From contig NZ_FNOR01000009.1 of assembly GCF_900107095.1 (NCBI RefSeq), forward strand, positions 62,001-126,000: a stretch of DNA of 64,000 nucleotides. The letters are read 5' to 3'. Positions 8,388 to 39,233 of this stretch are shown piece by piece (positions within the stretch are counted from its first letter, which is position 1; each line of letters begins with the position of its first letter). Made by a program: the position numbers and the translations under genes. Under the pieces are notes generated by a model. It was not told where the DNA came from, searched no databases, and worked only from the letters and a program-made list of their open reading frames with translations. The DNA is from Collimonas sp. OK242 (GTDB taxonomy: Bacteria; Pseudomonadota; Gammaproteobacteria; Burkholderiales; Burkholderiaceae_D).

Positions 8388-9941
8388 ATGCGCACTACTC
8401 GATATTTCGGCAAGGTACTGGCTGGCACCGCCGTCGCACTGACGGCCCAGTTTGCAGTGGGCCAGGCTTTTGCCGCCAAGGACGTCACGCTGGCAGTGGC
8501 TTCGACTTTTACCACGCTCGACCCTTACGACAGCAACGACACGCTGTCGCAGGCCGCCATCAAGTCCTTCTATCAAGGCTTGTTCGGTTTCGACAAGGAT
8601 TTGAAACTGGTCAATGTGCTGGCGGAAGGCTATGAAGTCAGCAAAGACGGCCTGCTCTACACCATCCGTCTGCGCAAGGGCGTCAAATTCCAGGACGGCA
8701 CCGACTTCAAGGCGGATGCGGTGAAGATGGTGCTGGAACGCGTCATCAATCCGGACAACAAGCTCAAGCGTTTCAATTTGTTCAACCGCATTTCCAAGGT
8801 CGACATCGTCAACGACTACGAAGTCAAGATCACCTTGAAAGAGCCGTTCTCGCCTTTCATCAATACCCTGGCGCACTCTTCCGCAGCGATGATTTCACCG
8901 ACCGCGCTCAAGAAGTGGGGCAACAAGGATATCGCTTTCCATCCGGTCGGCACCGGGCCGTTCAAGTTCGAAGAATGGAAGCAGACCGATTACCTGAAGG
9001 TCAGCAAATTCGACGGCTACTGGAAGAAGGGCTATCCGAAGGTCGACAGCATCACCTGGAAGCCGGTGGTCGACAACAATACCCGCAGCGCCATCATGCA
9101 AACAGGCGAAGCGCAATTCGCCTATCCGCTGCCGTATGAGCAAGCCGAGCTGCTGAAATCCAAGCCTAATCTGGACCTGATTTCGTCGGCGTCCATCGTG
9201 CAACGTTACATCTCGATGAATACGCTGCAAAAACCTTTCGACAATCCGAAGGTACGGCAAGCGATCAACTACGCAATCAACAAGGAAGCATTGGTCAAGG
9301 TAGCTTTCACCGGCTACGCCATGCCACAAGATGGCGTGCTGCCGCAAGGCGTGGATTACGCCTTGAAGACAGGGCCTTGGCCGTACGATCCGAAGAAGGC
9401 CAAGCAATTGCTGGCTGAAGCCGGTTACCCGAATGGCTTCGAAACCGAATTGTGGTCTGCCTATAACCACACTACCGCGCAGAAGATCATCCAGTTCGTG
9501 CAGCAACAGCTGGCGCAGGTCGGCATCAAAGCCAAGGTCATGGCGCTGGAAGCCGGCCAGCGGGTAGAGAAAGTCGAGAGCGCGCCGGTTGCCGCCAACG
9601 CGCCGGTACGGATGTACTACACCGGCTGGTCGTCCTCGACCGGTGAAGCCGATTGGGGCCTGCGTCCTCTGCTGGCGTCGGAATCGTTCCCGCCCAAGCT
9701 GTTCAACACGGCTTATTACAAGAACGACAAAGTCGACGCCGATATCGCCAAGGCGCTGACCACCACCGACCGCATGGAAAAGACTGCGCTCTACAAAGAT
9801 GCGCAAACTGAAATCTGGAAAGATGCACCGTGGGCTTTCCTGGTGACCGAAAAACTGTTGTATGCACGCAGCAAGAACCTGAAGGGTGTCTATGTGATGC
9901 CTGACGGTTCTTTCAATTTCGATGAAATTGAGTTGAAATAA
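8388..9941 (+). CDS. gsiB: periplasmic peptide/glutathione-binding protein (GsiB type, SBP family 5)
   Basis: A 517-residue solute-binding protein. The signal peptide runs to about residue 30 and ends [10 protein letters not shown]. The mature part has family-5 landmarks: [29 protein letters not shown] (about residues 86-99), [13 protein letters not shown], and the C-terminal [11 protein letters not shown]. It should capture peptides in the periplasm and hand them to GsiCD. GGGGAG lies seven bases upstream of ATG. An 87-base gap separates it from gsiA and a hairpin-rich 186-base gap separates it from gsiC, an arrangement that often allows higher expression of the binding protein. Confidence 0.94.
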
Positions 9942-10005
9942 TTGCGGGACAGAGTTTAAGAGCCACCGTAGCGTGGCGAATTACTCTGTCCTCAACTGAC
10001 CAGAT
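9941..10005 (+). repeat. dispersed hairpin repeat, copy 1 (between gsiB and gsiC)
   Basis: The outer arms GGACAGAGT (9947-9955) and ACTCTGTCC (9983-9991) are perfectly complementary and enclose a second stem, GCCAC (9962-9966) with GTGGC (9973-9977). The 65 bases match copy 2 at 17781-17845 with two substitutions. Diverged copies lie at 36449 and 39183. Confidence 0.9.
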
Positions 10006-10016
10006 AAAACGGTTAA

Positions 10017-10067
10017 TTTGCAAAGAAAAGCTTTTGCAAACCTACTCAAACCAGGCACAGACCTGGT
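10017..10067 (+). repeat. two further stem-loops in the gsiB-gsiC gap
   Basis: TTTGCAAAG at 10017-10025 pairs with CTTTTGCAAA at 10031-10040, and ACCAGG at 10050-10055 pairs with CCTGGT at 10062-10067. With the repeat just upstream, three hairpins lie between gsiB and gsiC. They may protect the gsiB end of the transcript and lower gsiCD expression. No T-run follows, so they are not standard terminators. Confidence 0.6.
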
Positions 10068-10127
10068 GAGACACATAATCCCGGGCCTGACCTGTCACCG
10101 CAGTCCAGCCAACTACCAGAGCACGCC

Positions 10128-11048
10128 ATGTTTCCTTATGTACTAAAACGCCTGCTGGGCCTGATACCAACCTTGCTGATCGTGGCGGTCATGGTATTTT
10201 TGTTTGTCCACTTGCTGCCGGGCGATCCGGCGCGGCTGGTGGCCGGACCTGAAGCCGATTCGCAGACGGTCGAACTGATCCGCAAGGATCTCGGCCTGGA
10301 TAAGCCGATGCACCAGCAATTCATCCACTATTTCAGCAAGGCCCTGCGCGGCGACTTTGGCAACTCCCTGCGCACCAAGCGTCCGGTCAGCACCGAGATC
10401 GCCGAACGTTTCTGGCCCACCTTTTGGCTCACCGTCACCAGCATGGTGTGGGCGGTGCTGTTCGGCCTGGTGATCGGTATCGTTTCCGCGGTATGGCGTA
10501 ACGAGTGGCCGGACCGCCTCGGCATGACGCTGGCGGTATCGGGAATTTCTTTTCCTTCGTTTGCGCTGGGCATGCTGCTGATGCAACTGTTCTCGGTCAA
10601 GCTCGGCTGGCTGCCCGCCATAGGCGCCGACGGCTGGCGTAATTACATCTTGCCGTCGCTGGCCCTGGGCGCCGCGGTGGCTGCCGTGATGGCGCGCTTT
10701 ACCCGTTCTTCCTTCGTCGAAGTCTTGCAGGAAGATTTCGTCCGGACCGCACGCGCCAAAGGCCTGTCGGAAACCATCGTGGTGCTCAAGCATTGCCTGC
10801 GCAATTCCCTGATTCCCGTGGTCACCATGATGGGACTGCAGTTCGGCTTCCTGCTGGGCGGCTCGATCGTGGTGGAAATAGTGTTCAACTGGCCCGGTAT
10901 GGGACGGTTGCTGATCGACGCTGTCGAAATGCGCGATTACCCGATCATCCAGGCCGAGATCCTGTTGTTCTCGCTGGAATTTATTTTCATCAATCTGGTG
11001 GTTGACGTGCTGTATGCCGTCATCAACCCTAGCATCCGTTACAAGTGA
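10128..11048 (+). CDS. gsiC: peptide/glutathione ABC transporter permease (GsiC type)
   Basis: A 306-residue DppB/GsiC-type permease. It has an N-terminal membrane segment ([19 protein letters not shown]) followed by [12 protein letters not shown], and a core of five further segments. The EAA coupling motif lies around [20 protein letters not shown] (about residues 204-223), which contacts GsiA. It ends [13 protein letters not shown] as in the family. It forms the channel with GsiD in the inner membrane. The stop lies just upstream of the gsiD start. Confidence 0.94.
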
Positions 11049-11056
11049 GGCCGCCT

Positions 11057-11962
11057 GTGTCTACTCCATTCAATCCTGTGGCCGCGGTTGCTGCCGCGCC
11101 GCTGCCGAATACGATCCGCACACCCTGGAGCGAATTCTGGCGCAAGTTCAAGAAACAGCATCTGGCGGTCGTGGCCGGCTGTTTCGTGTTGTTCCTGATC
11201 GTCGTGGCGATTGCCGCGCCTTGGCTGACGCCTTACGACGCCGAGAACTATTTTGATTACGACGCCTTGAATGCAGGGCCGTCGCTCGCGCACTGGTTCG
11301 GCGTCGATTCCTTGGGCCGCGATATTTTCAGCCGGATCCTGATGGGCACCCGCATTTCCCTCACCGCCGGTTTTTCATCGGTGGCGGTGGGCGCGGTGAT
11401 CGGCACCCTGGCCGGCTTGATTGCAGGTTATTACGAAGGCTGGGCCGAACGCATCATCATGCGCATTTGCGACGTGCTGTTTGCATTTCCCGGCATCTTG
11501 CTGGCGATCGGCATTGTGGCGATTCTCGGCAGCGGCATGACGAACGTGGTCTTCGCCGTAGCGATTTTCAGCATCCCGACTTTTGCCCGGCTGGTGCGCG
11601 GCAACACGCTGGCGCTGAAACACCTGACCTTCATCGAAGCGGTGCGCAGCATCGGCGCCAGCGATAGCACCATCATCCTGCGCCATATTTTTCCCGGCAC
11701 GGTATCAGCGGTAGTGGTGTATTTCACCATGCGCATCGGCACTTCCATCATCACTGCCGCCAGTCTGTCCTTCCTTGGCATGGGTGCCCAACCGCCGATG
11801 CCGGAATGGGGGGCGATGCTGCATGAAGCGCGTTCCGACATGATGACGGCGCCGCATATTGCGATTTTCCCCAGCCTGGCGATTTTCCTGACGGTGCTGG
11901 CATTCAACCTGCTGGGGGACGGCCTGCGCGACGCCCTCGATCCCAAGATCGACCGCCGCTGA
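11057..11962 (+). CDS. gsiD: peptide/glutathione ABC transporter permease (GsiD type)
   Basis: A 301-residue DppC-type permease. It has a cytoplasmic N-terminal arm with [18 protein letters not shown], a first membrane segment, then the family loop [15 protein letters not shown], four to five core segments and the EAA motif near [20 protein letters not shown]. The C-terminus [13 protein letters not shown] is diagnostic. I chose GTG 11057 because GAGG lies six bases upstream; GTG 11045, overlapping the gsiC stop, is the alternative and would add four residues. It works as a heterodimer with GsiC. Confidence 0.92.
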
Positions 11963-12996
11963 TGCTTGCCCTTCCACATATCGGCCGGCTGCCTGCCGGC
12001 CCCCTGAACGCCATCAGCGACGTCGCCGGCGTCACGGTCGGCCACGCCACATTGGCGCAGGGCGCGCTGCAAACCGGCGTGACGGTGATTCGCCCGCATC
12101 AAGGCGATCCGTTTCGCGACAAGGTGCCGGCAGCGGCAACGGTGTTCAACGGCTTCGGCAAAAGCATCGGACTGGTGCAGGTGCAGGAGTTGGGACTGCT
12201 TGAAACGCCGATTGCGCTGACCAATACCTTATCGGTCGGCAGCGTGGCGACGGCCCAGATTATTTCCGCGATCCAGGCCAACCCGGAGATCGGACGCAGC
12301 GACCCCACGGTCAACCCGCTGGTATTCGAATGCAATGACGGTTATCTGAACGATATCCAGGCGATGGCGATCAGCGCCGCGCATTATCAACAGGCGCTGG
12401 CCAATGCCGCGCCTGAGTTTGCCCAAGGCGCGGTCGGCGCGGGGCGCGGCATGTCATGTTTTGACCTCAAGGGCGGCATCGGCTCGGCTTCACGCCATGC
12501 AACCATCGGCGACCTGCAATATTGCGTTGGCGCGCTGGTACTGGCCAACTTCGGCAAACTGGCGGCGCTGACGCTGGCGGGCAAGCATGTCGGCGATGAA
12601 CTGATCCGGCTGCGACAATCGACTGCCGAATCCCCCGAGATGGGATCGATCATCATGATTATTGCGACCGATGCCCCGCTGGATGCGCGACAGCTGGGAC
12701 GACTGGCAACCCGTTGCGGCGTGGGCCTGGGCCGTACCGGGTCGATCTACGGCCATGGCAGCGGCGACCTGGCCCTGGCTTTTTCGACGGCGCAGACGGT
12801 GCCGTATCGCGCCGGCAGCGTGCTACGACGATCCTTTTCCTTGTACGATAACTTGCTGGATCCGCTGTTTGAAGCAGTCGCCGATAGTACCGAGCAGGCT
12901 ATCGTCAATGCACTGTTTGCGGCCGAAACCGTGGCCGGACGCGATGGCCGTCAACGCCAGTCTTTGCGTGAAGCGGCGGCCGGCCTTCTGCCTTAG
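11962..12996 (+). CDS. P1 family (S58, DmpA-type) aminopeptidase
   Basis: A 344-residue member of the DmpA/BapA family of self-cleaving Ntn-like hydrolases. It opens PAGPLNAISDVAGVTVGHAT as in DmpA, carries NTLSVGSVATAQI and FECNDGYLND, and has the autocleavage Gly-Ser in EMGSIIMIIATDAPL (about residue 229), then RCGVGLGRTGS. Family members release N-terminal D- or L-amino acids or beta-amino acids from small peptides. Its ATG overlaps the gsiD stop by one base (TGATG), so it belongs to the transport operon and should process imported peptides. Exact specificity cannot be read from sequence. Confidence 0.9.
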   Translation: MLALPHIGRLPAGPLNAISDVAGVTVGHATLAQGALQTGVTVIRPHQGDPFRDKVPAAATVFNGFGKSIGLVQVQELGLLETPIALTNTLSVGSVATAQIISAIQANPEIGRSDPTVNPLVFECNDGYLNDIQAMAISAAHYQQALANAAPEFAQGAVGAGRGMSCFDLKGGIGSASRHATIGDLQYCVGALVLANFGKLAALTLAGKHVGDELIRLRQSTAESPEMGSIIMIIATDAPLDARQLGRLATRCGVGLGRTGSIYGHGSGDLALAFSTAQTVPYRAGSVLRRSFSLYDNLLDPLFEAVADSTEQAIVNALFAAETVAGRDGRQRQSLREAAAGLLP

Positions 12997-13016
12997 TCTC
13001 TTATAAATAAACGACA

Positions 13017-13835
13017 ATGAAAATCCTTATTTCTGTTGATATCGAAGGCGTCGCCGGTGTCTTCCATCCGGAACAAACCCGCGCCGGCAATCCCGAATAC
13101 GAACGCGCGCGGCGCCTGATGACAGCCGAAGCCAATGCCGTCATCGAAGGTGCGCTGGCTGGCGGTGCGACCGAGATCGTGGTGAACGACTCGCATGGCG
13201 GTTTCCGCAACCTGTTGCCGGACTTGCTGCATCCTGCTGCCAACGCCATTCTCGGCAAGCCGCGCCTGCTAGGCATGATGAGCGGCGTCGACAGCGGCGT
13301 CGCCGGCGTGATGATGGTCGGCTACCATGGCCGCTCGCAAAGCCGCGGCATCCTGGCGCACACCATCAACAGTTTTGCTTTCTCCCGCGTCTGGCTCAAC
13401 GATCAGGAACTAGGCGAAGCGGGCATCTACGGCGCCCTCGCCGGTGAATTCGGCGTACCGGTGATTTTCGGCAGCGGCGACGATGTTTTCGTGGCCGAGA
13501 ACCAGCCGCTGTTTCCGCACGCCACGCTGGTCAGCATCAAGACCGCGGATGGCGCCAACAGCGGAACATCGCTGTCGCCGCAAAGCGCTTTGGCTATGTT
13601 GAGTGAGGGTGCCAAGGCTGCGCTCGGAAAAATTGCAGCCTGCCGTCCCTTTGTCCTGCCGCCGAGCGTCACATGCAAGCTGCAAACCGCCAGCCCGGCG
13701 TTAGCCGACCTGTTCTGTCAATTACCGATGCTGGAACGTATCGACGGCGTCAACCTCACATTTTCTGCGCCGTCCGTCCAATACGCAGTGCGGATACTGA
13801 ACAGCTTGTCGGCCATGTCTTTCATGCTTCGGTAG
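13017..13835 (+). CDS. dppA: M55 family D-aminopeptidase (DppA type)
   Basis: A 272-residue zinc aminopeptidase. The signature S-x-D-x-E-G is SVDIEG at residues 6-11. VNDSHGG (about 59-65) and MMVGYHGRS (about 100-108) supply further metal ligands. The C-terminal half has the GDDVFVAEN core. DppA of Bacillus cleaves N-terminal D-Ala from D-Ala-D-Ala. Here it follows the DmpA-type gene by 20 bases, so the operon carries three peptidases suited to unusual peptide bonds. Codon use matches its neighbours. Confidence 0.92.
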   Translation: MKILISVDIEGVAGVFHPEQTRAGNPEYERARRLMTAEANAVIEGALAGGATEIVVNDSHGGFRNLLPDLLHPAANAILGKPRLLGMMSGVDSGVAGVMMVGYHGRSQSRGILAHTINSFAFSRVWLNDQELGEAGIYGALAGEFGVPVIFGSGDDVFVAENQPLFPHATLVSIKTADGANSGTSLSPQSALAMLSEGAKAALGKIAACRPFVLPPSVTCKLQTASPALADLFCQLPMLERIDGVNLTFSAPSVQYAVRILNSLSAMSFMLR

Positions 13836-13925
13836 CGGCGTAAGCAAAGCGCGGAGAACGGGCTTGCTATTCAAGAAGGTATCTGACCCTATTTAACTGC
13901 AAACCGTAGAACCAGACGCCAACGA

Positions 13926-14033
13926 AGTGTTTTATCCTTATTCTGGCCTTTCGATACCCGGGAAGAGGCGGCCGTCACCGAATTTCAGGACTGGCTGGGC
14001 GCAATCCGGTCTGATGCAACAACAGAAGAATAG
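13926..14033 (+). pseudogene. remnant resembling the C-terminus of a LysR-family regulator
   Basis: An open stretch of 35 codons ending in TAG at 14031 reads FWPFDTREEAAVTEFQDWLG, which resembles the last helix and strand of GcvA-like LysR regulators (hydrophobic-P-x(n)-F-x-x-W-L). No start codon or upstream LysR domain is present in the preceding 90 bases, so if the match is real it is a decayed gene end. The call rests on eye matching of a short segment. Confidence 0.35.
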
Positions 14034-14039
14034 AAACCG

Positions 14040-14891
14040 ATGCCAACGATCACCACGCTGACGCTATACCCGATCAAATCCTGCGCCGGGATAGATCTGC
14101 CGGCAGCTACCGTCACCGCCACCGGCCTCAGCCATCAGCATGTGCATGACCGCGAATGGATGGTGGTAGACAGCGCCGGCCAGTTTCTATCGCAGCGCAG
14201 CCACGCCGTGATGGCGTTGATCGTGCCGCTTCTGCAAGCCGATGCGATGACCGTGCATGCGCCGGATATGCCGCCGCTTGAGATTGCGACTGCGGCCTTG
14301 CCTGCCGGATCGTTGCCGACCATGACAGTGCAGATCTGGGACGACAGCGTCACCGCGCACGATTGCGGCGGCCAAGCTGCCGACTGGTTCTCGCGTGTCA
14401 TCGGCCTGCCCTGCCGGCTGGTGCGCTTTGATCCCGCATGCAAGCGCCTGGCCAGTAAAAAATGGACCGGTGACAGCGACGCGCCAACCCGTTTTTCGGA
14501 CGGCTTTCCAATGCTGTTGATATCGCAGGAATCGCTCGACGATTTGAATCGAAAATTGCAGGCGCAGGGCCGCGCGGCCTTGCCGATGAACCGTTTCCGC
14601 CCCAACATCGTGATCGATGGGGTAGCAGCGTTTGAGGAGGATTTTCTGGCGACCATCAGGGCGGGGGCAGCATGTTTGCAACCGGTCAAGCCATGTGCGC
14701 GCTGCCCGGTGCCGTCTATCGATCAGGCCACCGCTGAACACGGCCCCGATCCCATGGATATCCTGATGACTTACCGCGCCAATCCGCGTGTCGATGGCGG
14801 CGTCACTTTCGGCATCAATACGATATTGCTGGAAGGAGATGGCGAAATCCTGCGCACCGGGCAGGAAATCGAGGTGGAACTGGCGTTCTAG
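14040..14891 (+). CDS. MOSC-domain protein (YcbX-like, with N-terminal beta-barrel)
   Basis: A 283-residue protein with a MOSC N-terminal barrel (residues 1-120; LTLYPIKSCAGID and REWMVVD are typical) and a MOSC domain (about 130-280). The latter contains the putative Moco-ligand cysteine in VKPCARCPVPSIDQ, plus RFRPNIVIDG and FPMLLISQESLDDLN. Relatives such as YcbX and mARC reduce N-hydroxylated compounds using sulfurated molybdenum cofactor. YcbX adds a 2Fe-2S ferredoxin domain that is absent here, so an external electron donor would be needed; the convergent ferredoxin gene ends seven bases away, but it is a housekeeping 4Fe-4S type and the link is only positional. Confidence 0.88.
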   Translation: MPTITTLTLYPIKSCAGIDLPAATVTATGLSHQHVHDREWMVVDSAGQFLSQRSHAVMALIVPLLQADAMTVHAPDMPPLEIATAALPAGSLPTMTVQIWDDSVTAHDCGGQAADWFSRVIGLPCRLVRFDPACKRLASKKWTGDSDAPTRFSDGFPMLLISQESLDDLNRKLQAQGRAALPMNRFRPNIVIDGVAAFEEDFLATIRAGAACLQPVKPCARCPVPSIDQATAEHGPDPMDILMTYRANPRVDGGVTFGINTILLEGDGEILRTGQEIEVELAF

Positions 14892-14898
14892 GGAGTTA

Positions 14899-15189
<291 letters not shown>

Positions 15190-15204
15190 TTAAATCAAGT
15201 TGCC

Positions 15205-15224
15205 GCGGGATCGAATGATCCCGC
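15205..15224 (-). terminator. hairpin between coaD and the ferredoxin gene
   Basis: GCGGGATC and GATCCCGC form a perfect eight-base stem with a four-base loop. No clear T-run follows on the minus strand, so it may be a processing or attenuating structure rather than a full terminator. Confidence 0.4.
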
Positions 15225-15279
15225 CTTACTGCCTTGCCGTTATTTTAATCCCGCTGGAGATTCGCCGCAGCGTAGCCCC

Positions 15280-15789
<510 letters not shown>

Positions 15790-15818
15790 TCAGATCGCGC
15801 ATTATGCCTGAATTTGCA

Positions 15819-16490
15819 TCAGCCAGAATGCCCTTGCCTTTTCAGCAAGTGGTAAAACACTATACCAGCCTTATCAGCCCGCAGCAGTTGCCAGCCGGCC
15901 AGCCAGGGCGGTAAAGCGTCCTCCTGCAACGCGAATTCGGACTCCAGGTACAGCAAACCATGCTCGGCCAGCAAACCCTGGCATTGCGGCAGCACCTTTT
16001 CCAGCCAGCCCTGCTGATACGGCGGATCGAGGAAAATCAGATCGAAGCGCGCAGAATCTGCAACGGCCTCAGTGCCAGCCTGAGCGCTAACCTTACTTAA
16101 CCAGGTTGCCGCATCGCTGCGCAAAATCCGCACCTGGCTGGCATCCAGCTTGGTTTTGGTAACTTCCAGCTGGCGTGCGGCCGGTGTGTTGTGCTCAATC
16201 ATCGTCACTTCCAGTGCGCCGCGGCTGGCGGCTTCAAACCCTAGCGCGCCGGTGCCGGCAAACAGGTCGAGGCAGCGGACCGCGCTCCAGTTGCCATCAA
16301 GCAAGTGTGTCAGCCAGTTGAACAAGGTTTCACGCACCCTATCCGGCGTCGGCCGCAGGCCTTCGCTATCCAATACCGCCAACGGCGTACGTTTCCAGGC
16401 GCCGCCAATGATTCTTACCTGGCGCACCAATGGCGGCTTGATGGCATGCACCGGTGTCTTCGGTGCTTTTTTGTTGCTTGGTTTTTTCAT
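15819..16490 (-). CDS. rsmD: 16S rRNA (guanine(966)-N(2))-methyltransferase
   Basis: A 223-residue methyltransferase that modifies G966 in the 30S subunit. It has RIIGGAWKRTPL and LRPTPDRVRETLFNWL at the N-terminus, the SAM-binding LDLFAGTGALGFEAASRGA and the catalytic FLDPPY motif. A Lys-rich extension precedes the core. ATG 16490 gives MKKPSNKK; a longer frame upstream is not protein-like. It is divergent from ftsY, a conserved arrangement. Confidence 0.96.
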   Translation of the reverse strand: MKKPSNKKAPKTPVHAIKPPLVRQVRIIGGAWKRTPLAVLDSEGLRPTPDRVRETLFNWLTHLLDGNWSAVRCLDLFAGTGALGFEAASRGALEVTMIEHNTPAARQLEVTKTKLDASQVRILRSDAATWLSKVSAQAGTEAVADSARFDLIFLDPPYQQGWLEKVLPQCQGLLAEHGLLYLESEFALQEDALPPWLAGWQLLRADKAGIVFYHLLKRQGHSG

Positions 16491-16703
16491 TAAGTTTAAT
16501 AAAAATGGGGAAATTTGCTGGAATTCCGTCAATTCGGCGAGATTCTGAGGCCAGCCATGCCGGTAACTGCCATGATCGACGGGACTATCCCTAATTCGGC
16601 AGGCTGCGCTCTGATAGAATGCCGGAGATTGTACCTCTTGTGCAGCCTGCTTCGACAAGCTACTGCAACGCCCTATTTCACCGCCTTACAGATCAGGCCT
16701 CAG

Positions 16704-17777: not shown

Positions 17778-17780
17778 TTA

Positions 17781-17845
17781 ATTGCGGGACAGAGTTTAAG
17801 AGCCACCGCAGCGTGGCGAATTACTCTGTCCCCAACTGACCAGAT
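17781..17845 (+). repeat. dispersed hairpin repeat, copy 2 (between ftsY and ftsE)
   Basis: The arms GGACAGAGT and ACTCTGTCC enclose GCCAC/GTGGC, as in copy 1. It is in the same orientation as the flanking genes and starts four bases after the ftsY stop. Two substitutions separate it from copy 1 over 65 bases, one in the inner loop and one just outside the outer stem. Confidence 0.9.
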
Positions 17846-17938
17846 CAAGAGTATCAAGCAACGTAGGGCCTCGCAAAACAAGCGAGAAATTACAGTTTTC
17901 CATGCATTTCCATTCAACCAGCCTAGCCGTCTACCGCA

Positions 17939-19557: not shown

Positions 19558-19571
19558 ATCCCGGTAGCCAC

Positions 19572-30999: not shown

Positions 31000-31028
31000 C
31001 GATCCAGTTAAATCCGATTGCAAATAGG

Positions 31029-31053
31029 AAAAGGCAGCCTTGGCTGCCTTTTT
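31029..31053 (+). terminator. rho-independent terminator after rpoH
   Basis: AAGGCAGCC and GGCTGCCTT form a nine-base stem with a two-base apparent loop (opening to four or more in RNA), with A residues before and TTTTT after. It sits about 30 bases after the rpoH stop and may also serve the convergent sco gene. Confidence 0.85.
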
Positions 31054-31091
31054 CATTGCGCGCCGTTAAGATCGGGCGCCGCCTTCGCTGA

Positions 31092-31736
31092 TCACTTCAA
31101 CAACAATTTCAAATCATGGGCGATCGGGTCAGCCCCCTGGCCGTGACGTATGAACAGGCGGATATGGCCTTCCGGATCAAATACATAGCTGCCGGCGGTA
31201 TGGTCCATGGTGTAGCTGCCTGGCGTCTTGCCAGGCACTTTTTGATAAAACACGCGGAATTCCTTGGCCACCTTGTCGGTCGCCGCCTGGTCGCCATACA
31301 GGCCGACGAAATTTGGATCGAACGCCGGCACATATTTGGACAGCAACTCCTGCGTATCGCGCTCCGGATCAACCGTAATGAACAATACCTGCACCTTGCT
31401 TGCCAGCGGCCCGAGTTCCTTCATGACATCGGCCATCTCAACCATGGTGGTCGGACAAACGTCAGGACATTGGGTGTAGCCGAAAAACACTAGTACTGCC
31501 TTGCCCTTGTAATCAGCCAGTGTGCGCGGCTTGCCGGTATGGTCTGTCAGGGCAAAATCGCGGGCGTAGCCGAGCCCGGTGACGTCGGTGTTGATGAAAG
31601 CGCTGTTAGCCGGCGACAGTGTCATCTCCCGGCTGCCGCCTGCCGTGCCGCTACCTGCTTTATCACCACAGGCCGACAACGACAGCGCCATCAGCAGGCC
31701 CGCGAAAATGGAGGCGACAGGAGTCACACGCTTCAT
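31092..31736 (-). CDS. SCO1/SenC-family copper chaperone for cytochrome oxidase
   Basis: A 214-residue lipoprotein-like protein. The signal segment ends LSLSACGDKA, a lipobox. The thioredoxin-like SCO domain carries the copper ligands in GYTQCPDVCPTTM and the distal His in YTMDHTAGSYVFDP. It delivers copper to the CuA site of subunit II from the periplasmic side of the membrane. The start ATG 31736 was chosen because the upstream extension reads as the wrong frame of ctaB. It is the last gene of the oxidase assembly group. Confidence 0.94.
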   Translation of the reverse strand: MKRVTPVASIFAGLLMALSLSACGDKAGSGTAGGSREMTLSPANSAFINTDVTGLGYARDFALTDHTGKPRTLADYKGKAVLVFFGYTQCPDVCPTTMVEMADVMKELGPLASKVQVLFITVDPERDTQELLSKYVPAFDPNFVGLYGDQAATDKVAKEFRVFYQKVPGKTPGSYTMDHTAGSYVFDPEGHIRLFIRHGQGADPIAHDLKLLLK

Positions 31737-31744
31737 GTTTGCTT

Positions 31745-32629
31745 TCAAAATTTGAGATAGTGATCGACCAGCAGAGCGGCGAACAACAACGACAGATAGA
31801 CGATTGAATAAGCGAAAGTCTTGCGCGCAATCAAATCGGTGTAATGCCGATAAATCTGCCATGCGTACCAGAGGAAGATCAGGCCCAGCACTGTCGCGCT
31901 GGCCAGGTAAATCAGGCCGCTCATGCCGACCGCAAACGGCAGCATGGTGGTGGCCACCAAGGCAATCGTATACAGCAGGATCTGGAACTGGGTGAACTTC
32001 ATGCCATGCGTGATGGGCAACATCGGCAAACCGGATTTGGCGTAGTCGTCGCGCCGATACATGGCCAGCGCCCAGAAATGCGGCGGGGTCCAGACAAAGA
32101 TGATCATCACCAGCAGCCAGGCCTGCATCGGCACGTCGTTGGCAATCGCAGCCCAGCCCAGGGCTGGCGGCATGGCGCCGGCCAGGCCGCCGATGACGAT
32201 ATTTTGCGGCGTCGCCGGCTTCAGGATGATGGTGTAGATAATTGCGTAGCCGACAAACGTGGCGAAAGTCAGCCACATGGTCAGCGGATTGACGAAGTTG
32301 TACAGCACCCACATGCCGAGCCCGCCTATCACGCCGGAAAATACCAGGGTCTGGGGCACCGTGATTTCGCCGCGCGCCATAGGCCGCCGTGCCGTGCGCG
32401 CCATGCGCGAATCGATTTCACGCTCGACCAGGCAGTTGACGGCAAAAGCCGCGCCGGCCAGCAGCCAGATGCCGATGGTGGCGGAAATCAGGCGCTGCCA
32501 TTCGGGCAAGCCCGGAGTGGACAGGAACATGCCGATCACCGCGCAAAATACCGCCAGCTGCGTAACGCGCGGCTTGGTCAGCGCCCAGTACTGGGCAATT
32601 CGATTAGGTGGTACGGTCAATGCGGTCAT
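31745..32629 (-). CDS. ctaB: protoheme IX farnesyltransferase (heme O synthase)
   Basis: A 294-residue UbiA-family prenyltransferase (also called cyoE) with about nine membrane segments. The catalytic loop has [20 protein letters not shown] (about residues 65-84), with the second Asp-rich loop [19 protein letters not shown] (about 190-208). It adds farnesyl to heme b to make heme O, the substrate of CtaA. Its start overlaps the ctaA stop by four bases. It opens with the family's [17 protein letters not shown]. Confidence 0.96.
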
Positions 32630-33792
32630 GGTTGCGGGTTGAGGCGATCAGCAATTGGATGGCTTGGCGCCCCCAAAACCGGGGATACGCGTAAAGCAAG
32701 TCTAGCCTTGTAGTTTAACATGACCAGCAACAGCAGCAGCAGCGCTGCCCCACCGTTGTGCGCCACGGCAATCGCCAGCGGCCAGTTCAGAAAAATAGTA
32801 GACAAGCCGGTAATCAATTGCAAGCCGACAATAATCAGCAGCCAGCGGCCGGTTTTTTGCAAGCCCTGGGTGCGTAAGGCTTTGCAGGCCAGCCAGACGA
32901 CGAAGGCGATCACTACGAAAGCGAAGCTGCGGTGGGTCCAGTGTATCGCCGTCAATGCCTGGAACGACAGGAACTCGCCGTCGGCGGTCATGCCCAGATG
33001 ACGCCATAAGGTAAAACCATTGGCGAAATCCATCTGCGGCACCAGTGCGCCATGGCAACTAGGGAAATCGGTACAGGCAAGCGCGGCATAGTTAGTACTT
33101 ACCCATCCACCCAGGGCGATCTGCAGCACCAATAACAACATGCCGATCAAGGCCGGCTTCACCAAGGCGGCGGCGCTGGCGGCCACCGGTGCATGCGCGC
33201 TTTGACGCGCGCCGAGCCAGGTCAGCATCGCCAGCAAGGTCAGGCCAAGCAACAGATGCGTAGTCACGATCACGGGCTGCAGTTTTTGCGTCACGGTCCA
33301 GGCGCCGAAAGCGCCTTGCAGACAGACGAATAAAAACAGCACAGTTGGAAACCATGGCGAAAACTTGCTTTCCTGCTTATTTTTCCCAGTCGCAGAATTC
33401 CCGGCCTTGAGCCACCGCACCCAGGCGATCACCATCAAGGCAATGATCAGCACGCCGACGCCCATCGCGAAATAACGATGGGTCATTTCGATCCAGGCCT
33501 TCATCACCGTCACAGGGCCATCCGGCAGCGCTGCCTGGGCCGCGCTGATATGCGCATGCGCCTGCAGCGGGTTGGAATGTCCGTAGCACCCCGGCCAGTC
33601 AGGGCAACCGAGGCCGGAATCGGTGAGCCGGGTGAAGGCGCCGAACATGATCAGGTCAAACGTGAGGAACAGCGTCACCCATACCAGCTTGCGATATTTA
33701 TTGGCGTCGCTGGAAACCCAGACCACGCAGAACGCCAGCAAGGCAACCAGCAATCCCATGCTGCCGAGCTGAACTAGCATTGGCGTTGTCAT
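32626..33792 (-). CDS. ctaA: heme A synthase (COX15/CtaA)
   Basis: A 388-residue membrane protein with eight predicted helices. Conserved features are [21 protein letters not shown] (given here as [16 protein letters not shown], about residues 53-68), the heme-ligand His in [31 protein letters not shown] with a second Cys pair, and [11 protein letters not shown]. It converts heme O to heme A for the aa3 oxidase. It is translationally coupled to ctaB. Confidence 0.95.
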
Positions 33793-33796
33793 CGGC

Positions 33797-34453
33797 TCAT
33801 CCTATCGCCGAAGCCCGCAGCAGCTTGGACAGGTCTTTTTTGACCAGGCTTGGATCTGCATCCTTGGGGAAACGCATCATCAGATGGCCGAGCGGATCGA
33901 TCAGATAGATATGATCGGCGGCGCTGGTATTGGCCTCGGTCGGCAACCAGGCTTTCAGCAAATCCGGCTTCACCCGCAGCAGCCTGGTGCCGTCGTATTC
34001 ACGCATAACCATGGTTGGCAGTGGCTGGTCATCGGTAATCAGCCAGACGCGCTCAATCCGCTCCATTTCCTTGCCTTGCATCAGGCGCAGCTGACGCATT
34101 TCGAACAGCTTGTCCTGGCAAGCTTTCTGACAGTCGCCGCCATCAACTTGCACCATCAGCCATTTACCTTTGTAGGCATCCAGGGCGAGCGGCTTGCCGT
34201 CCAGCGCGGTGCTGCCCAGCTCTGGCACGGGATAATCGCGCGGATCGAGCAGCGCGCCATAATTATTGCGGCTCTGCGGCTTGATGACGTAGTACGTGAA
34301 ATAGGAGGCAATCATGGGCGCTGCGCATATCGCAATCACCGCGAACAATTTCCAGCGGCCGCTCTGGCGCTGCTTATTTTCAGCCTGATTGCCGACCATA
34401 TTATTATCAGCCAGGACGTTGAGCGGCTGGCTTGCTGGTGTTTTCTGATCCAC
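33797..34453 (-). CDS. SCO-like membrane-anchored protein of the oxidase assembly cluster
   Basis: A 218-residue protein with one membrane segment (WKLFAVIAICAAPMIASYFTY starts near residue 34; shown as LFAVIAICAAPMIASYF) and a periplasmic thioredoxin-like domain. Where SCO proteins have CxxxC this one has GGDCQKACQDKLFEM, so two cysteines with a three-residue spacing are kept. The C-terminal half reads HIYLIDPLGHLMMRFP, also SCO-like. A role in copper or thiol handling for oxidase assembly is likely but not proven. The GTG start at 34453 has AGGA upstream and makes a 47-base overlap with surf1; ATG 34399 would avoid it but has no ribosome site. Confidence 0.8.
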   Translation of the reverse strand: MDQKTPASQPLNVLADNNMVGNQAENKQRQSGRWKLFAVIAICAAPMIASYFTYYVIKPQSRNNYGALLDPRDYPVPELGSTALDGKPLALDAYKGKWLMVQVDGGDCQKACQDKLFEMRQLRLMQGKEMERIERVWLITDDQPLPTMVMREYDGTRLLRVKPDLLKAWLPTEANTSAADHIYLIDPLGHLMMRFPKDADPSLVKKDLSKLLRASAIG

Positions 34454-35165
34454 GTCTAAATCCTGTCACAACAAAAAAAATGAACGCCATCACGGCCAGC
34501 GCATACCATTGGAATGCGTAGCCGCGGTGCTTTTCGATACCGAGCGAAGGCCGCGGCCAATCGCGCAGCAGATGGTCTTCGGTGTTGCTGGTTTGCTCGA
34601 TTACGAACGGCTGCAGCTTCAACTTGCTGGCCGCTGCAAATTCGTTTATTCCCAGATTTTGCATAATTGCCTGAGGCTGCGGCGGGGCCGCATCGCCCAG
34701 CTGCAAAACATGGCCGAAATCGCGCCTGACCAGCCCTTCTATCTCAATCATGCCGGCCGGCGTCGGGTAGGACGGCAACTTGCTGCGATCCGCCGGATCG
34801 CGCGGCAACCAGCCGCGTGCTACCAGTATGTAACTATCACCCATCGTGTCCGACGCCGCAAGTTTGAACGGCATCAGCACATAAAACCCGGCGACGCCGT
34901 TCAAGGGACGATTGTCGAGATAGACCGGCCAGCCGGCAATAAATTCACCGCGCAACGCCATGTGTCTATATTCAAGTTGATCGATATCCTGCAATCCGTC
35001 GCCGAATTTGACAGTAGCATCGGCTTCGCGTTGCAGCAACTTGGTTTCGATCGCCTGCTTTTGATCGCCGCGCCGCGTTTGCCATTGTGCCAACGCTATG
35101 CCCAGCACCACCAGCAATACAGTCACTACAAACGGAATCAAGCGAAAACGGAATCTGATTGGCAT
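34407..35165 (-). CDS. SURF1-family cytochrome oxidase assembly protein
   Basis: A 252-residue protein with an N-terminal membrane segment (FVVTVLLVVLGIALAQWQ) and a C-terminal one (YALAVMAFIFFVVTGFRR). Between them are the SURF1 marks YRHMALRGEF, YLDNRPLNGVAGFYVLMPF and LVARGWLPRDPADR. SURF1 helps insert heme A into subunit I. It is divergent from the twin-helix DUF2909 gene, as is usual in beta-proteobacteria. Confidence 0.93.
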   Translation of the reverse strand: MPIRFRFRLIPFVVTVLLVVLGIALAQWQTRRGDQKQAIETKLLQREADATVKFGDGLQDIDQLEYRHMALRGEFIAGWPVYLDNRPLNGVAGFYVLMPFKLAASDTMGDSYILVARGWLPRDPADRSKLPSYPTPAGMIEIEGLVRRDFGHVLQLGDAAPPQPQAIMQNLGINEFAAASKLKLQPFVIEQTSNTEDHLLRDWPRPSLGIEKHRGYAFQWYALAVMAFIFFVVTGFRRGSENTSKPAAQRPG

Positions 35166-35204
35166 TACAATACCGCCTTAGTCTCTATTTTCCTGGCCCA
35201 TAAA

Positions 35205-35405
35205 ATGAAAATCGTCGTTGCCATTGCTTTCATCCTGATCATCGGCAGCCTGTTCTCGGCACTGCTTTTCCTGATGCGCGACAAAGGTAAAAGCAACCGT
35301 ACGGTACAGGCTTTGACCATGCGTGTCGGCTTTTCGGTCGCCCTGTTCATCCTGCTGCTGGTCTTGTACAAATTCGGGTATATTCAGCCGACCGGACTGC
35401 ACTAA
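35205..35405 (+). CDS. DUF2909-family twin-transmembrane protein
   Basis: A 66-residue membrane protein with two helices (VAIAFILIIGSLFSALLFLM and VGFSVALFILLLVLYKFGY) joined by a basic loop, RDKGKSNRTVQALTMR. This is the DUF2909 pattern. It starts 39 bases from the divergent surf1 start and stands alone on the plus strand inside the oxidase cluster, so a role in oxidase assembly is suggested by location. A bidirectional terminator follows. Confidence 0.9.
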   Translation: MKIVVAIAFILIIGSLFSALLFLMRDKGKSNRTVQALTMRVGFSVALFILLLVLYKFGYIQPTGLH

Positions 35406-35464
35406 GCATCGCATCGTTGCTGTAGCGCATTATTTCCGGAACTCTCCTTAGGATCCGCAGTAAA

Positions 35465-35490
35465 AAAGGCCGCACCGAGGTGCGGCCTTT
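35465..35490. terminator. hairpin terminator between DUF2909 and ctaE (convergent)
   Basis: AAAGGCCGCAC and GTGCGGCCTTT form an 11-base perfect stem around CGAG. A-tract before and T-tract after make it able to act from either side; it is placed between two convergent genes. Confidence 0.88.
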
Positions 35491-35549
35491 CGTTTACACG
35501 CTTGATTAATTTAATGCGCTTAATCGATCCGTCTAATCCGCTTTTACTA

Positions 35550-36410
35550 TTACAGCCAGTACACCACGACGTACAAGCCAAGCCAGACCACGTCCACAAA
35601 GTGCCAGTACCAGGCCGCGCCTTCAAATGCGAAATGGTGTTCCGGGGTGAAATGCCCCTTCAGTACGCGGTACAGCACTACCGATAGCATGATGGCGCCG
35701 ATGGTCACATGGAAGCCGTGGAAACCGGTCAGCAGGAAGAATGTGGAACCGTAGACGCCGGAACTCAGTTTAAGATTGAAATCGCTATACGCTTCAATGT
35801 ATTCGGCAGCCTGGAAACCCATGAAGGTGGCGCCCAGCACAATCGTTGCGAACAGCCAGAATGCAGTCTTGGCGCGATGGCCGGAACGCAAGGCGTGATG
35901 CGAAATCGTCAACGTGACGCCCGATGTCAGCAGCAGAGCGGTATTGATAGTCGGGATCGGGAATGGTCCCATGGTGCTGAAGGATTCGATCGTACCGGCC
36001 GGGCCGGCATTGCCCCAATGGGCGGCAAAGTCTGGCCACAACAGTTTGTTGTCGAGGTCGCCCAGCCACGGCATGGAAATGCTGCGTGCGTAAAACAAGG
36101 CGCCAAAGAACGCGGCGAAAAACATCACTTCGGAAAAAATGAACCAGCTCATGCTCCAGCGATACGAGGTATCGATGCGGGCACTGTACAAGCCGCCTTC
36201 GGATTCACGGATGGCGTCGCCGAACCATTTGAATAGCACGACCAGGAAAGACAGGATGCCGATCACGCACAGCTCCGGACCCCACACAACGCTATTGACC
36301 CACGCTGCGGCGCCAGCCATCGTCGCCAATAGCGATGCACCTCCCAACACTGGCCACCTGGATGGGCCAGGGACGAAATAGTAAGGTGCACTACCTTGTT
36401 GAGAACTCAT
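35550..36410 (-). CDS. ctaE: cytochrome c oxidase subunit III
   Basis: A 286-residue membrane protein with seven predicted helices. Typical segments are YYFVPGPSRWPVLGG at the start, the YRWSMSWFIFSEVMFFAAFFGALF helix (here WFIFSEVMFFAAFFGALF), LLLTSGVTLTISHHAL, GFQAAEYIEAY and FLLTGFHGFHVTIGAIML, ending in WHFVDVVWLGLYVVVYW. It stabilises the oxidase core. GGGAG lies six bases before ATG 36410, so the upstream ATGs were not used. Confidence 0.96.
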   Translation of the reverse strand: MSSQQGSAPYYFVPGPSRWPVLGGASLLATMAGAAAWVNSVVWGPELCVIGILSFLVVLFKWFGDAIRESEGGLYSARIDTSYRWSMSWFIFSEVMFFAAFFGALFYARSISMPWLGDLDNKLLWPDFAAHWGNAGPAGTIESFSTMGPFPIPTINTALLLTSGVTLTISHHALRSGHRAKTAFWLFATIVLGATFMGFQAAEYIEAYSDFNLKLSSGVYGSTFFLLTGFHGFHVTIGAIMLSVVLYRVLKGHFTPEHHFAFEGAAWYWHFVDVVWLGLYVVVYWL

Positions 36411-36448
36411 TTCCATCTCCCGATACAAATTTAATTAGTTATTTCATT

Positions 36449-36516
36449 ATTTGCGGGACAGAGCGTAAGTGGCGCCTGGATAAAATTTCGCGCCGAATTA
36501 CTCCATCCTCAACCGA
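36449..36516 (+). repeat. dispersed hairpin repeat, diverged copy 3 (upstream of ctaE)
   Basis: GCGGGACAGAG and GAATTAC are kept, but the inner stem is now GGCGC (36471-36475) with GCGCC (36490-36494) instead of GCCAC/GTGGC, so pairing is preserved by a different sequence. The outer stem is weaker (CTCCATCC in place of CTCTGTCC). It lies between DUF2970 and ctaE, opposite in orientation to them. Confidence 0.75.
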
Positions 36517-36536
36517 GTAAAAATATTTTGCTGCAC

Positions 36537-36752
36537 TTATTTAGCGACAACCAGTTTCACAATCGTGATCAGGATCGCAATAAAAATCAAGGCGCCGAGT
36601 ATGCCGGCTATCACTACATGCACCGGATTCAAACCGGCTGCATCGCTTTCGTAATCTTTCCGCTTACGGACCCCGAAGAACGACCAGAATACGGCCTTCA
36701 TGGTGGCGCCGAATGAGGCTTTGCGACGACTTGCTTCCTTCAGATCCGACAT
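36537..36752 (-). CDS. DUF2970-family small membrane protein
   Basis: A 71-residue protein with a basic N-terminal half (SFGATMKAVFWSFFGVRKRKDYE) and one membrane helix near the C-terminus (VIAGILGALIFIAILITIVK). These match DUF2970, which is commonly encoded between ctaG and ctaE in beta-proteobacteria. The N-terminal segment AVFWSFFGVRKR is the conserved part. An oxidase-related role is inferred from position. ATG 36752 gives the family start MSDLKEA. Confidence 0.88.
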   Translation of the reverse strand: MSDLKEASRRKASFGATMKAVFWSFFGVRKRKDYESDAAGLNPVHVVIAGILGALIFIAILITIVKLVVAK

Positions 36753-36802
36753 TTGATACCCCAAGTTGCTCTGCCAGGTTACCCGGATTCAGGCCGGCTT
36801 AT

Positions 36803-37387
36803 TCAGGTCGGCTTATCCGGCTGCCCCGTAATTTCAAAAAACGTATACGACAGCGTGATTACCTTCACATCTTTAGGTATAGCAGGATCTATGTAAAACA
36901 CCACCGGCATTTCCTTGGCCTGGTTCGGCCCAAGAGTTTGCTGGGTGAAACAGAAACACTCGACTTTCTTGAAGAAAGCCGCTGCCTGCTGCGGTGCATA
37001 ACTCGGAATCGCCTGTGCATCCATCTTGCGCGATTGTTTGTTCACCACTTCATATACCACCTGCGTCATTTCACCCGGATGCACCTGCAGGCTGCTGACT
37101 GTCGGCCGGAAGCGCCACGGGCCTTGCGAATTACCGTCGAATTCAACAGTAATCGTCCGGTTCTTGTCGACCTGGGTATTGGTCGGCGCTTCCACCGTTG
37201 CATCTTTCGGCGTCAGGTAATTGACGCCGGTAATTTCGCAAATCTTTTTATACACCGGCACCAGGCCATAACCGAAGCCGAACATCATCACCGCAATCAC
37301 CGTCAGCTTGCCGAGCATCTGCCAATTCAGTTTTCTCGATTCGGCCTTGGCGCTTCCATTTGCACCCTTGTCTGCAGGATTGGCCAT
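36803..37387 (-). CDS. ctaG: cytochrome c oxidase assembly protein CtaG/Cox11
   Basis: A 194-residue copper chaperone. After a membrane anchor (LGKLTVIAVMMFGFGYGLVPVY) the periplasmic domain has YKKICEITGVN, WRFRPTVSSLQVHPGE and the copper-binding CFCFTQQTL (about residues 140-148), then EMPVVFYIDP. It inserts copper into the CuB site of subunit I. Its ATG follows the stop of the 35-residue gene directly. Confidence 0.95.
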   Translation of the reverse strand: MANPADKGANGSAKAESRKLNWQMLGKLTVIAVMMFGFGYGLVPVYKKICEITGVNYLTPKDATVEAPTNTQVDKNRTITVEFDGNSQGPWRFRPTVSSLQVHPGEMTQVVYEVVNKQSRKMDAQAIPSYAPQQAAAFFKKVECFCFTQQTLGPNQAKEMPVVFYIDPAIPKDVKVITLSYTFFEITGQPDKPT

Positions 37388-37495
37388 CTACTTGAACCAC
37401 AACATCTTGACGAAGATCGCGATGAAGAAGCTCAAGGCAAGCAGACCTACCAGCAATCCGGTACGTACGTTATTAGGCTTTTTCGGGTTACTCAT
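37388..37495 (-). CDS. 35-residue cytochrome oxidase small assembly protein
   Basis: A very short gene between ctaD and ctaG. It starts MSNPKKPNNVRTG and continues with one membrane helix (LLVGLLALSFFIAIFVKML) ending WFK. Its stop is immediately before the ctaG start codon. Such proteins are present at this position across Burkholderiales and are called cytochrome oxidase small assembly proteins; the exact job is not known. The hydrophobic helix, basic start and tight spacing argue that it is translated. Confidence 0.85.
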   Translation of the reverse strand: MSNPKKPNNVRTGLLVGLLALSFFIAIFVKMLWFK

Positions 37496-37558
37496 TTTGC
37501 TCAATCGCACAGAATTGGCGGGCCTGGACTGGCTCTTGCCGGCCACCCGCCGCTGCCA

Positions 37559-39160
37559 TCATTTAAAGACCGGTGGCGTTTCAAAAGTATGGAAAGGTGC
37601 CGGGCTGGGAACAGTCCATTCCAGGCCCTCGGCGCCATCCCAAGGCTTGTCGACGGCCTTCTTGCCACCCTTGATCGATGGAATGATCACAAAGAACAGG
37701 AAGTAGACCTGGGTCAGGCCGAAGCCCAAGGCGCCGATCGAAGCCAGCATGTTGAAGTCGGTGAACTGCGCCGGATAATCGGCGTAGCGGCGCGGCATAC
37801 CGGCCAGGCCGAGGAAGTGCATCGGGAAGAACGTCACGTTAAACCAGACCAGCGAATTCCAGAAATGGATCTTGCCGCGGGTTTCGTTGTACATGAAGCC
37901 AGTCCACTTTGGACTCCAGTAGTAGTAGCCGGCGAACAGGGCGAACAGGGAACCGGCCACCAGCACGTAGTGGAAATGCGCCACCACATAGTAGGTATCC
38001 TGCATCTGGATGTCGATCGGGGTTACCGCCAGGATCAAGCCGGTGAAGCCGCCCATGGTGAACACGAAAATGAAGCCGATCGCGAACAGCATCGGGGTTT
38101 CGAAAGTCATCGAACCGCGCCACATGGTAGCGATCCAGTTGAAAATCTTGACGCCGGTCGGCACCGCGATCAGCATGGTTGCGTACATGAAGAACAGCTG
38201 CGCAGTCACCGGCATGCCGGTGGTGAACATGTGGTGAGCCCAGACGATGAACGACAGGATCGCGATTGAGGCAGTGGCGTACACCATCGACGCATAACCG
38301 AACAATTGCTTGCGGGCGAACGCCGGGATGATCTGCGACACGATGCCGAACGCCGGCAGAATCATGATGTACACCTCTGGATGACCGAAGAACCAGAAGA
38401 TGTGCTGATACATCACCGGATCGCCGCCGCCGGCAGCGTTAAAGAAAGAGGTGCCGAAATGACGGTCGGTCAGCGTCATGGTGATCGCGCCAGCCAGAAC
38501 AGGCATCACGGCGATCAGCAGGTAAGCGGTAATCAGCCAGGTCCAGCAGAACATCGGCATCTTCATCAGCGTCATGCCAGGCGCGCGCATGTTGAGGATG
38601 GTGGTGATGATGTTGATAGAACCCATGATCGACGATGCACCCATGATATGGACGGCGAAAATCGCCATGTCCATACCAGGCCCCATTTGCGTCGACAGCG
38701 GCGCGTACAGCGTCCAGCCGGCAGCGGTTGCGCCGCCAGGAACCAGGAAGGAAGTCGCCAGCAGCAAGGCGGCCGGCGGCATCAGCCAGAACGAGAAATT
38801 GTTCATCCGCGCAAAGGCCATGTCGGAGGCGCCGATTTGCAGCGGGATCATCCAGTTGGCGAAGCCGACGAAAGCCGGCATGATCGCGCCGAACACCATG
38901 ATCAAACCGTGCATGGTGGTCAGCTGATTGAAGAATTCCGGCTTGAAGAATTGCAGGCCGGGCTGGAACAGCTCGGCGCGGATCAGCAATGCCAGCACGC
39001 CGCCGGACAGCAGCATGGTGAAAGAGAACCACAGGTACAGGGTACCGATGTCCTTGTGATTGGTTGCAAACAACCAGCGCCGCCAGCCGTGTGGATGGTC
39101 ATGGTGCGCGTGGTCGTCGTGAGAATGATCGTGTGCGTGATCGACTGCGGTAGTGCTCAT
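37559..39160 (-). CDS. ctaD: cytochrome c oxidase subunit I (aa3 type)
   Basis: A 533-residue heme-copper oxidase core with 12 membrane helices. The heme ligands and CuB site are in [32 protein letters not shown] (His and crosslinked Tyr), WAHHMFTTG and [19 protein letters not shown]- and D-channel residues appear conserved. The N-terminus is unusually His/Asp-rich ([17 protein letters not shown], about residues 8-24), before the normal [18 protein letters not shown]. It reduces oxygen to water while pumping protons. Confidence 0.97.
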
Positions 39161-39182
39161 CTCAATCTCCTGATTCAGTGGA

Positions 39183-39233
39183 GGACAGAGTAATTCGTCA
39201 CAAGCTTCGCTTGCCGACTCTTAAACTCTGCCC
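39183..39233 (-). repeat. dispersed hairpin repeat, diverged copy 4 (between ctaC and ctaD)
   Basis: Read on the minus strand it has CAGAGTTTAAGAG at its start and CGAATTACTCTGTCC at its end, matching copies 1 and 2. The inner stem is CAAGC/GCTTG around GAA, flanked by GTC/GAC, again a different but paired sequence. It is oriented with the ctaC-ctaD transcript. Confidence 0.85.

Follow-up and report, generated by a model that had tools for sequence, protein, structure and literature searches.

The 64,000-nucleotide (nt) stretch of Collimonas sp. OK242 analyzed here (the window; bases 62001–126000 of its contig, in a genome of 4.98 Mb) carries four copies of a dispersed hairpin, each located in a spacer between genes. 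Domain assignment placed SBP_bac_5 and BPD_transp_1 around copy 1, SRP54 (ftsY) and ABC (ftsE) around copy 2, DUF2970 and COX3 around copy 3, and COX2 and COX1 around copy 4. These are the flanking genes given in the original prediction, which we take to be gsi, fts, and cta genes. All four copies that it listed were found, with a junction (AATTGC or similar) and hairpin running from 9940 (+), 17780 (+), 36449 (+), and from 39240 to 39172 (−). Copy 1 (9940–10029, +) is a full-length unit consisting of an AATTGC junction, a hairpin, and a tail. Its hairpin (9946–9992) has outer arms GGGACAGAGT/ACTCTGTCC, an internal loop TTTAAGA/GAATT, and an inner stem GCCAC/GTGGC, and its 37-nt tail is A-rich and terminates in GCAAAGAAAA. 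Many other copies start aligning at about 9937–9941 and stop at about 10028–10031. Copy 2 (17780–17848, +), in the ftsY-ftsE spacer, has the hairpin with a shortened tail and differs from copy 1 at two positions across the 65 originally compared. Copy 3 (36449–36519, +) lies between DUF2970 and COX3, both on the minus strand, and has the inner stem GGCGC/GCGCC and a decayed outer arm, the 3′ arm being the form CTCCATCC. Copy 4 (39172–39240, −) lies immediately 5′ of the ctaD (COX1) start and lacks the long tail. The inner stems were as previously described except in copy 4, where CAAGC/GCTTG forms the top of a longer stem starting GTC/GAC (GTC..CAAGC/GCTTG..GAC). CAGAG..TAAG and GAATTACT are retained in all four copies. 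With up to three mismatches, GGGACAGAGTTTAAG matched the window five times, four of these being the copies, against 0.63 matches expected, and none of 100 shuffles reached five. The 3′ half, GAATTACTCTGTCC, was less striking at the same tolerance (six matches against 2.43 expected; 3 of 100 shuffles reached six). RNA folding z-scores on the copy strand were −4.1, −5.5, −0.5, and −4.6 for copies 1–4, so the fold of copy 3 is not significant. The hairpin family is real and not a product of chance.

Further copies, rather than none, were found by a covariance-model search of the genome and its relatives. The model was trained on 25 copies from the genome itself (G000), and counts were drawn from up to 150 scored candidates per genome. 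The genome contains 45 matches at E ≤ 0.001, including two from a second, related family. A scan of the same genome with the two-arm pattern gave 27 matches with at most one mismatch, including 13 exact ones and three that are truncated or due to chance (L002, L018, and L020), and the reversed pattern gave none. The 15 genomes of the genus have 7–50 model matches each, 363 in total. Collimonas belongs to the Oxalobacteraceae of the Burkholderiales, and a survey of its family as delimited by the search tool (up to 27 scored candidates per genome) revealed matches in 30 of 195 genomes and 12 of 44 genera including Collimonas, a patchy spread. Among named genomes, the exact pattern occurred in 18 stretches, 17 from Collimonas and one from an Oxalobacteraceae metagenome-assembled genome. 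Copies from eight genomes of other genera kept GGGACAGAG in all eight and CTCTGTCC in six, and their inner stems are mostly paired. In other genera, tandem units are also seen about 19 nt apart (L195 in G041 and L196 in G039), compared with about 41 nt in two Collimonas dimers. Carriage by plasmids or viruses was rejected, because no plasmid matched copy 1 at E ≤ 1e-5 and no viral contig contained the exact two-arm pattern.

The anatomy of the element was compared in 165 copies, to which genomes other than G000 contribute the best-scoring 120 of 318 model matches; comparisons of the interior are therefore biased towards well-paired copies. Typically the element is a hairpin of about 47 nt, which in some copies continues into a tail of about 37 nt. 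Exact matches to CTCTGTCC were present in 119 hairpins and to GGGACAGAG in 107. The outer arms flank a conserved unpaired TTTAAGA/GAATTA, with TTTAAGA present in 100 copies and GAATTA in 132. The inner stem of five base pairs is variable, the commonest types being GCCAC/GTGGC (60 copies), GTCGC/GCGAC (25), and GCCGC/GCGGC (22), followed by GGCGC/GCGAC with one mismatch (11), GCCGC/GTGGC (8), and GGCGC/GCGCC (6). These stems do pair outside the window, with five of five pairs formed in 135 copies, four in 24, and fewer in six, in a set found by a model that itself rewards pairing. Some copies have one or two units of 14–15 nt added to the 3′ arm, and a few have them in the 5′ arm. A tail resembling GATAAAACGGTTAAATTGCAAAGAAAA was detected at 36 of 90 independent sites, and 23 of these 36 tails stop 25–27 nt past CAACTGAYTA. 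Information content over the 90 sites is raised from −9 onward and drops away about 27 nt past the same motif. Upstream of the element, A+T content is 69% in the last 10 nt against 47% further out, and the four nucleotides preceding the foot are TTGC in 91, TTGT in 22, and ATTG in 13 of the 165 copies.

The paired positions covary. Both partners change in 10 of the 15 pairs across 109 distinct rows (shuffled mean 4.0), and there are 98 double-change cells against 22.5 in shuffles. The signal is weaker in the 25 own copies alone, which have 20 double-change cells against 7.3 shuffled, with double-change pairs (3 vs. 2.2) and pair types (10 vs. 9.8) that are not unusual. In alignment A2, 8 of 115 rows are second or opposite-strand readings of elements already listed.

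Occupancy of the same spacers differs between close relatives. Among 14 genomes, site 1 is occupied in one, site 2 in two, site 3 in four with a remnant in a fifth, and site 4 in four; two further sites of the OK242 genome are occupied in two and one of the 14. At site 4 the occupied alleles have an insertion of about 67 nt, and in the other 10 genomes CTCCTAA or a similar sequence runs nearly straight into TTACTTACGCG, a plain empty site. No target duplication was evident by eye at copy 4. The element at this site is present in G007, G008, and G012 and absent from G001, G013, and G014, whose sequence at this site is closer to that of the window, and this distribution indicates patchy gain, loss, or transfer. 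In some relatives, site 1 or site 3 holds a different repeat, which marks these spacers as prone to insertion. Near the hairpin start found in G000 and G013 at C15:171197, the empty alleles of G001, G007, and G012 (3 of 12) read AATTGC, as does the empty allele of G010 at site 2 (1 of 12). Judged by eye, this suggests that AATTGC is a target that existed before insertion.

A single Y1_Tnp gene was found in G000 (C35:146113-146832), about 20 kb outside the window, and no search for other transposase types near the hairpins was made. It encodes a protein of 240 amino acids (aa) of the REP-associated tyrosine transposase (RAYT; REP, repetitive extragenic palindrome) type, with the motifs SNHIHLL and YIDQNP. 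The gene is intact in 14 of the 15 genus genomes, at one locus before gltB, and is in pieces in G011. Of the RAYT loci, the 33 best-scoring were examined and 31 parsed (14 from Collimonas and 17 from other genera), and gltB adjoins the gene in 30, the exception lying at a contig end. The parsed loci carry GGG[T/A]C[A/G]GAG/C[T/C]C[T/C]G[T/A]CCC repeats. Downstream of the gene there are two direct repeats in 26 loci, 39 nt (22 loci) or 40 nt (four loci) apart, and one in the remaining five. The length of the spacer between the two is kept and its sequence is not (e.g., L029:2980-3880, G000 C35). In 27 of 31 loci the proximal repeat is an exact copy of CTCTGTCCC, which is also the 3′ arm of the hairpin. 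Upstream, one or two copies of GGGTCAGAG are present in 13 of the 14 Collimonas loci, the other locus beginning at a contig end. The flanks of the G000 gene, GGGGTCAG upstream and CTGTCCCC downstream, fit inverted repeats of the form GGGGWSAS. The second hairpin family mentioned above is more palindromic (GGGGTCGGAGTTTTTTTACGAC...GTCGTAAATTACTCTGACCCC; C17:48772-48837 (−) and C41:2348-2413 (−) in G000), and its ends are closer than those of the main family to the RAYT repeats GGGTCAGAG/CTCTGACCC. The protein is under purifying selection: comparison of seven genomes in 21 pairs gave a median ratio of non-synonymous to synonymous substitution (dN/dS) of 0.065. In a Foldseek search with its AlphaFold model (mean pLDDT 73.8), the top-ranked structure was 4er8, in which a RAYT is bound to a REP hairpin (E 4.3e-8; identity 18%), followed by the IS608 and ISDra2 transposases; a sequence search against solved structures gave nothing at E ≤ 0.1, and the fold search alone matched. 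In length and motifs, as far as the table in PMC6006769 allows the comparison, the protein resembles the TnpAY1 subclass 2.1 "TIRYT" proteins.

The hairpins are probably small non-autonomous mobile DNA elements of the RAYT/IS200 type, related to the terminal inverted repeat (TIR) sequences of RAYT-like genes, and the shared motifs make it likely that the resident RAYT-type protein mobilizes them. Copy number, covariation, presence and absence at orthologous sites, identity of the arm and gene-flank motifs, the predicted fold, and purifying selection are shown by the data, and from them we infer binding, cleavage, and transposition by the protein. The elements would spread by the chemistry of Y1 (HUH) transposases, which act on single strands and read hairpins, with the one RAYT-type protein of the genome, a subclass 2.1-like "TIRYT," as the likely partner. 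The element would fold within single-stranded DNA, and the protein would recognize the GGG[A/T]CAGAGT foot together with the conserved internal loop, TTTAAG/GAATT. Pairing would be required of the inner stem, whose sequence would be free, and insertion would take place next to an A/T-rich site, roughly AATTGC. In E. coli REPs, according to PMC8266576, recognition seems to depend critically on a mid-stem bulge being unpaired and not on the bases that it contains.

Several observations weigh against this reading. The protein scores 73.6 bits with the NCBIfam model REP_Tyr_transpos, whose cut-off is 80, the tail was detectable at just 36 of the 90 sites, and the AATTGC target was deduced from a small number of empty alleles, inspected by eye, that may instead be excision scars. 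Homologues of the gene at E ≤ 1e-20 are present in 191 of 195 family genomes and hairpin-model matches, obtained under stricter filters, in 30, so the gene does not predict hairpins; this agrees with PMC3733652, in which the presence of such genes and that of repeat families were not obviously correlated. Genomes without hairpin matches (e.g., G028, G137, and G124) have the same RAYT flanking motif, and G021, which is 73% complete, has a hairpin match and no protein match. The upstream repeat of the gene in Collimonas is GGGTCAGAG and not GGGACAGAG. This last difference at the sole Y1_Tnp gene, and the failure to find hairpins in most genomes with the gene, are what would be seen if a different and possibly lost transposase had moved the hairpins and the match to the RAYT flanks reflected common ancestry of the repeats. 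That origin is nevertheless quite unlikely in view of the proximal downstream repeat, which is exactly CTCTGTCCC in nearly all parsed loci.

Pairing of the stem could also be kept with no selection at all. Quasipalindrome correction is template switching between the arms of a hairpin, and either this process or gene conversion between copies could swap the interior as a unit. Orthology was assigned by BLAST of the flanks, and one cluster merged neighboring loci (C9:122823, C9:122912, L252, L266, and L270). At the 37 sites occupied in at least two sampled genomes, the inner stem differs at 22 and the full type at 30. Flank and tail both reach 80% identity in 43 orthologous pairs, and 13 of these, not all independent because some share a copy, have an interior below 80%; in one example (G000 C9:126947 and G001 L245) the flank is 100%, the tail 92%, and the interior 38% identical. 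In 56 of the 126 changed inner-pair cells, which are also not independent, both partners have changed and both states pair; single changes account for 38 cells that still pair, and at least one state is unpaired in the other 32. On the other hand, the 149 orthologous pairs are on the whole better conserved in the interior (median identity 0.83) than in the tail (0.73), with the outer arms at 0.94, as would be expected if the hairpin were constrained or if sampling had taken good hairpins only. The inner stem is common to 72 of these 149 pairs against 2092 of 11,818 non-orthologous pairs, and paired copies were favored by the sampling. Exchange without selection leaves the spread to new sites and the conserved unpaired loop unexplained, and as a full account it is unlikely. 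A more far-reaching suggestion, speculative and rather improbable, is that the genome maintains the subclass 2.1-like RAYT as an editor of the hairpins, one that would insert them and exchange their interiors at occupied sites. Orthologous copies would then change the inner stem and 14-nt modules together with the junctions fixed, and the spacer of 39–40 nt between the downstream repeats would be part of the machine.

The original prediction took the retained pairing as a sign of selection on structure and proposed that the hairpins tune mRNA stability or uncouple operon genes. The covariation stands, and selection at the RNA level is not required for it. Since interiors differ at 22 of 37 orthologous sites, kept pairing can reflect recognition by a transposase or exchange between copies, and selection by a hairpin-reading transposase, inter-copy exchange, and template-switch correction all fit. 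If a transcribed hairpin between operon genes stabilized or terminated the mRNA, selection on RNA would maintain the pairing; three of the four window copies do have significant RNA folds, and some pairs have changed via G-U. A crude gene finder, which missed ftsE next to copy 2, put three of the 45 own copies within open reading frames (ORFs), left four at edges, and classed 38, of which 30 lie between codirectional, five between convergent, and three between divergent genes. The corresponding numbers for window gaps of at least 40 nt (n = 38) are, however, 28, 4, and 6. Codirectional spacers being the commonest kind in the window, the 30 of 38 lend no support to an operon role, and with 16 copies in the same and 14 in the opposite orientation to codirectional genes there is no bias of location or orientation relative to transcription. 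The claim is thus unsupported, and it is further weakened by the absence of the four hairpins from the same spacer in 13, 12, 10, and 10 of 14 genomes. Rfam gathering scores give RNase P alone in the window, and copy 1 has no match up to E = 1; a known Rfam RNA was therefore rejected. Maintenance by RNA selection is very unlikely, and an RNA role for the hairpins is possible but unsupported. A bias in replication strand (42 of 63 typed matches in six genomes, p 0.011) was not used, as it was driven by G002 and G004, assumed an origin at base 1, and included orthologous copies.

The closest known systems are the TIRtron/TIRYT genes. As described in PMC3733652 and PMC6006769, these share with the Collimonas system a RAYT-like gene of about 240 aa with [N/D]HxH and mostly Y[I/V]E[L/T]NP (YIDQNP in Collimonas), flanking inverted repeats near GGGGWSAS, and dispersed repeats, some in dimers. 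The relevant sections of PMC6006769 place 20 of the 26 TIRYTs of PMC3733652 in subclass 2.1 and report no REP-like sequences near subclass 2.1 genes, and those of PMC3733652 describe moderately abundant, dispersed TIR families in some genomes, self-complementary in Stenotrophomonas maltophilia. The arms described above, with 363 model matches over 15 genomes, are dispersed copies of the TIR type. The hairpins differ from TIR repeats in their conserved internal loop, covarying inner stem, 14–15-nt modules, and interior differences at orthologous sites, and, in the 5′ arm, GGGGWSAS usually has a C in place of its first G (TTGC directly before GGGACAG).

GTAG REPs and REPINs with their RAYT, such as E. 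coli TnpA-REP, are likewise multi-copy and extragenic hairpins, part of their stem is unpaired, and their Y1 transposase has the same predicted fold. The hairpins are multi-copy extragenic palindromes with a covarying stem (45 in G000, three of them in ORFs by the crude gene finder), and what they have in common with the gene flanks is the arms and not a tetranucleotide tag. GTAG, GTGG, GGAG, and CGTC were found at the foot of none of 165 copies, and GT[A/G]G within 8 nt in two. The description of the hairpins as REP-like with retained pairing is close in kind, since the arms link them to a RAYT-type transposase and the covariation is real, and membership in the GTAG/CGTC REP super-family is rejected. 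IS200/IS605 elements (IS608 and ISDra2) share the transposase fold and the lack of an evident target duplication, as judged by eye at copy 4. The hairpins, in contrast, do not enclose a transposase, the gene keeps its position beside gltB in the parsed loci, and the model matches of 60–107 nt are too short for a transposase gene such as tnpA; identity with these elements was rejected.

A literature search with the letters of the arms gave no title on a bacterial repeat among the matches listed, and a search on Collimonas or Oxalobacteraceae with RAYT, palindrome, or MITE (miniature inverted-repeat transposable element) gave nothing relevant among the matches listed. The sections of PMC4690342 reached by the terms searched contain nothing on such repeats, and the main text of PMC3733652 does not mention Collimonas, Herminiimonas, Janthinobacterium, or Herbaspirillum. 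An anatomy of internal loop and modular stem sets the hairpins apart from the known TIR repeats to which they are related, self-complementary TIRs having already been reported in S. maltophilia. Subclass 2.1 RAYT-like genes are common, one survey found no REP-like sequences nearby, and their substrates are untested in the literature examined. Repeats flanking the gene that adjoins gltB recur in a polymorphic hairpin family, and this offers a concrete substrate for testing such proteins. The family is also a warning that covariation of dispersed bacterial hairpins can stem from mobile DNA and not from RNA function.

Other repeats and one known RNA were seen in the same material. The gsiB-gsiC spacer of several relatives without the hairpin (L146, L148, L153, L154, and L155) contains another repeat with GCGAACGCGGG-like palindromes. 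A separate Y1 transposase of 179 aa has flanking repeats GTGGGCA...TGCCCAC (L108 and L109; G013 and G005), and GTGGGCAC hairpins similar to the repeats of this transposase occur in the gsiB-gsiC spacer (site 1) of G008 and G012. The window also encodes a class A RNase P RNA at 45970–46295 (−), matched by Rfam RF00010 with 239 bits.

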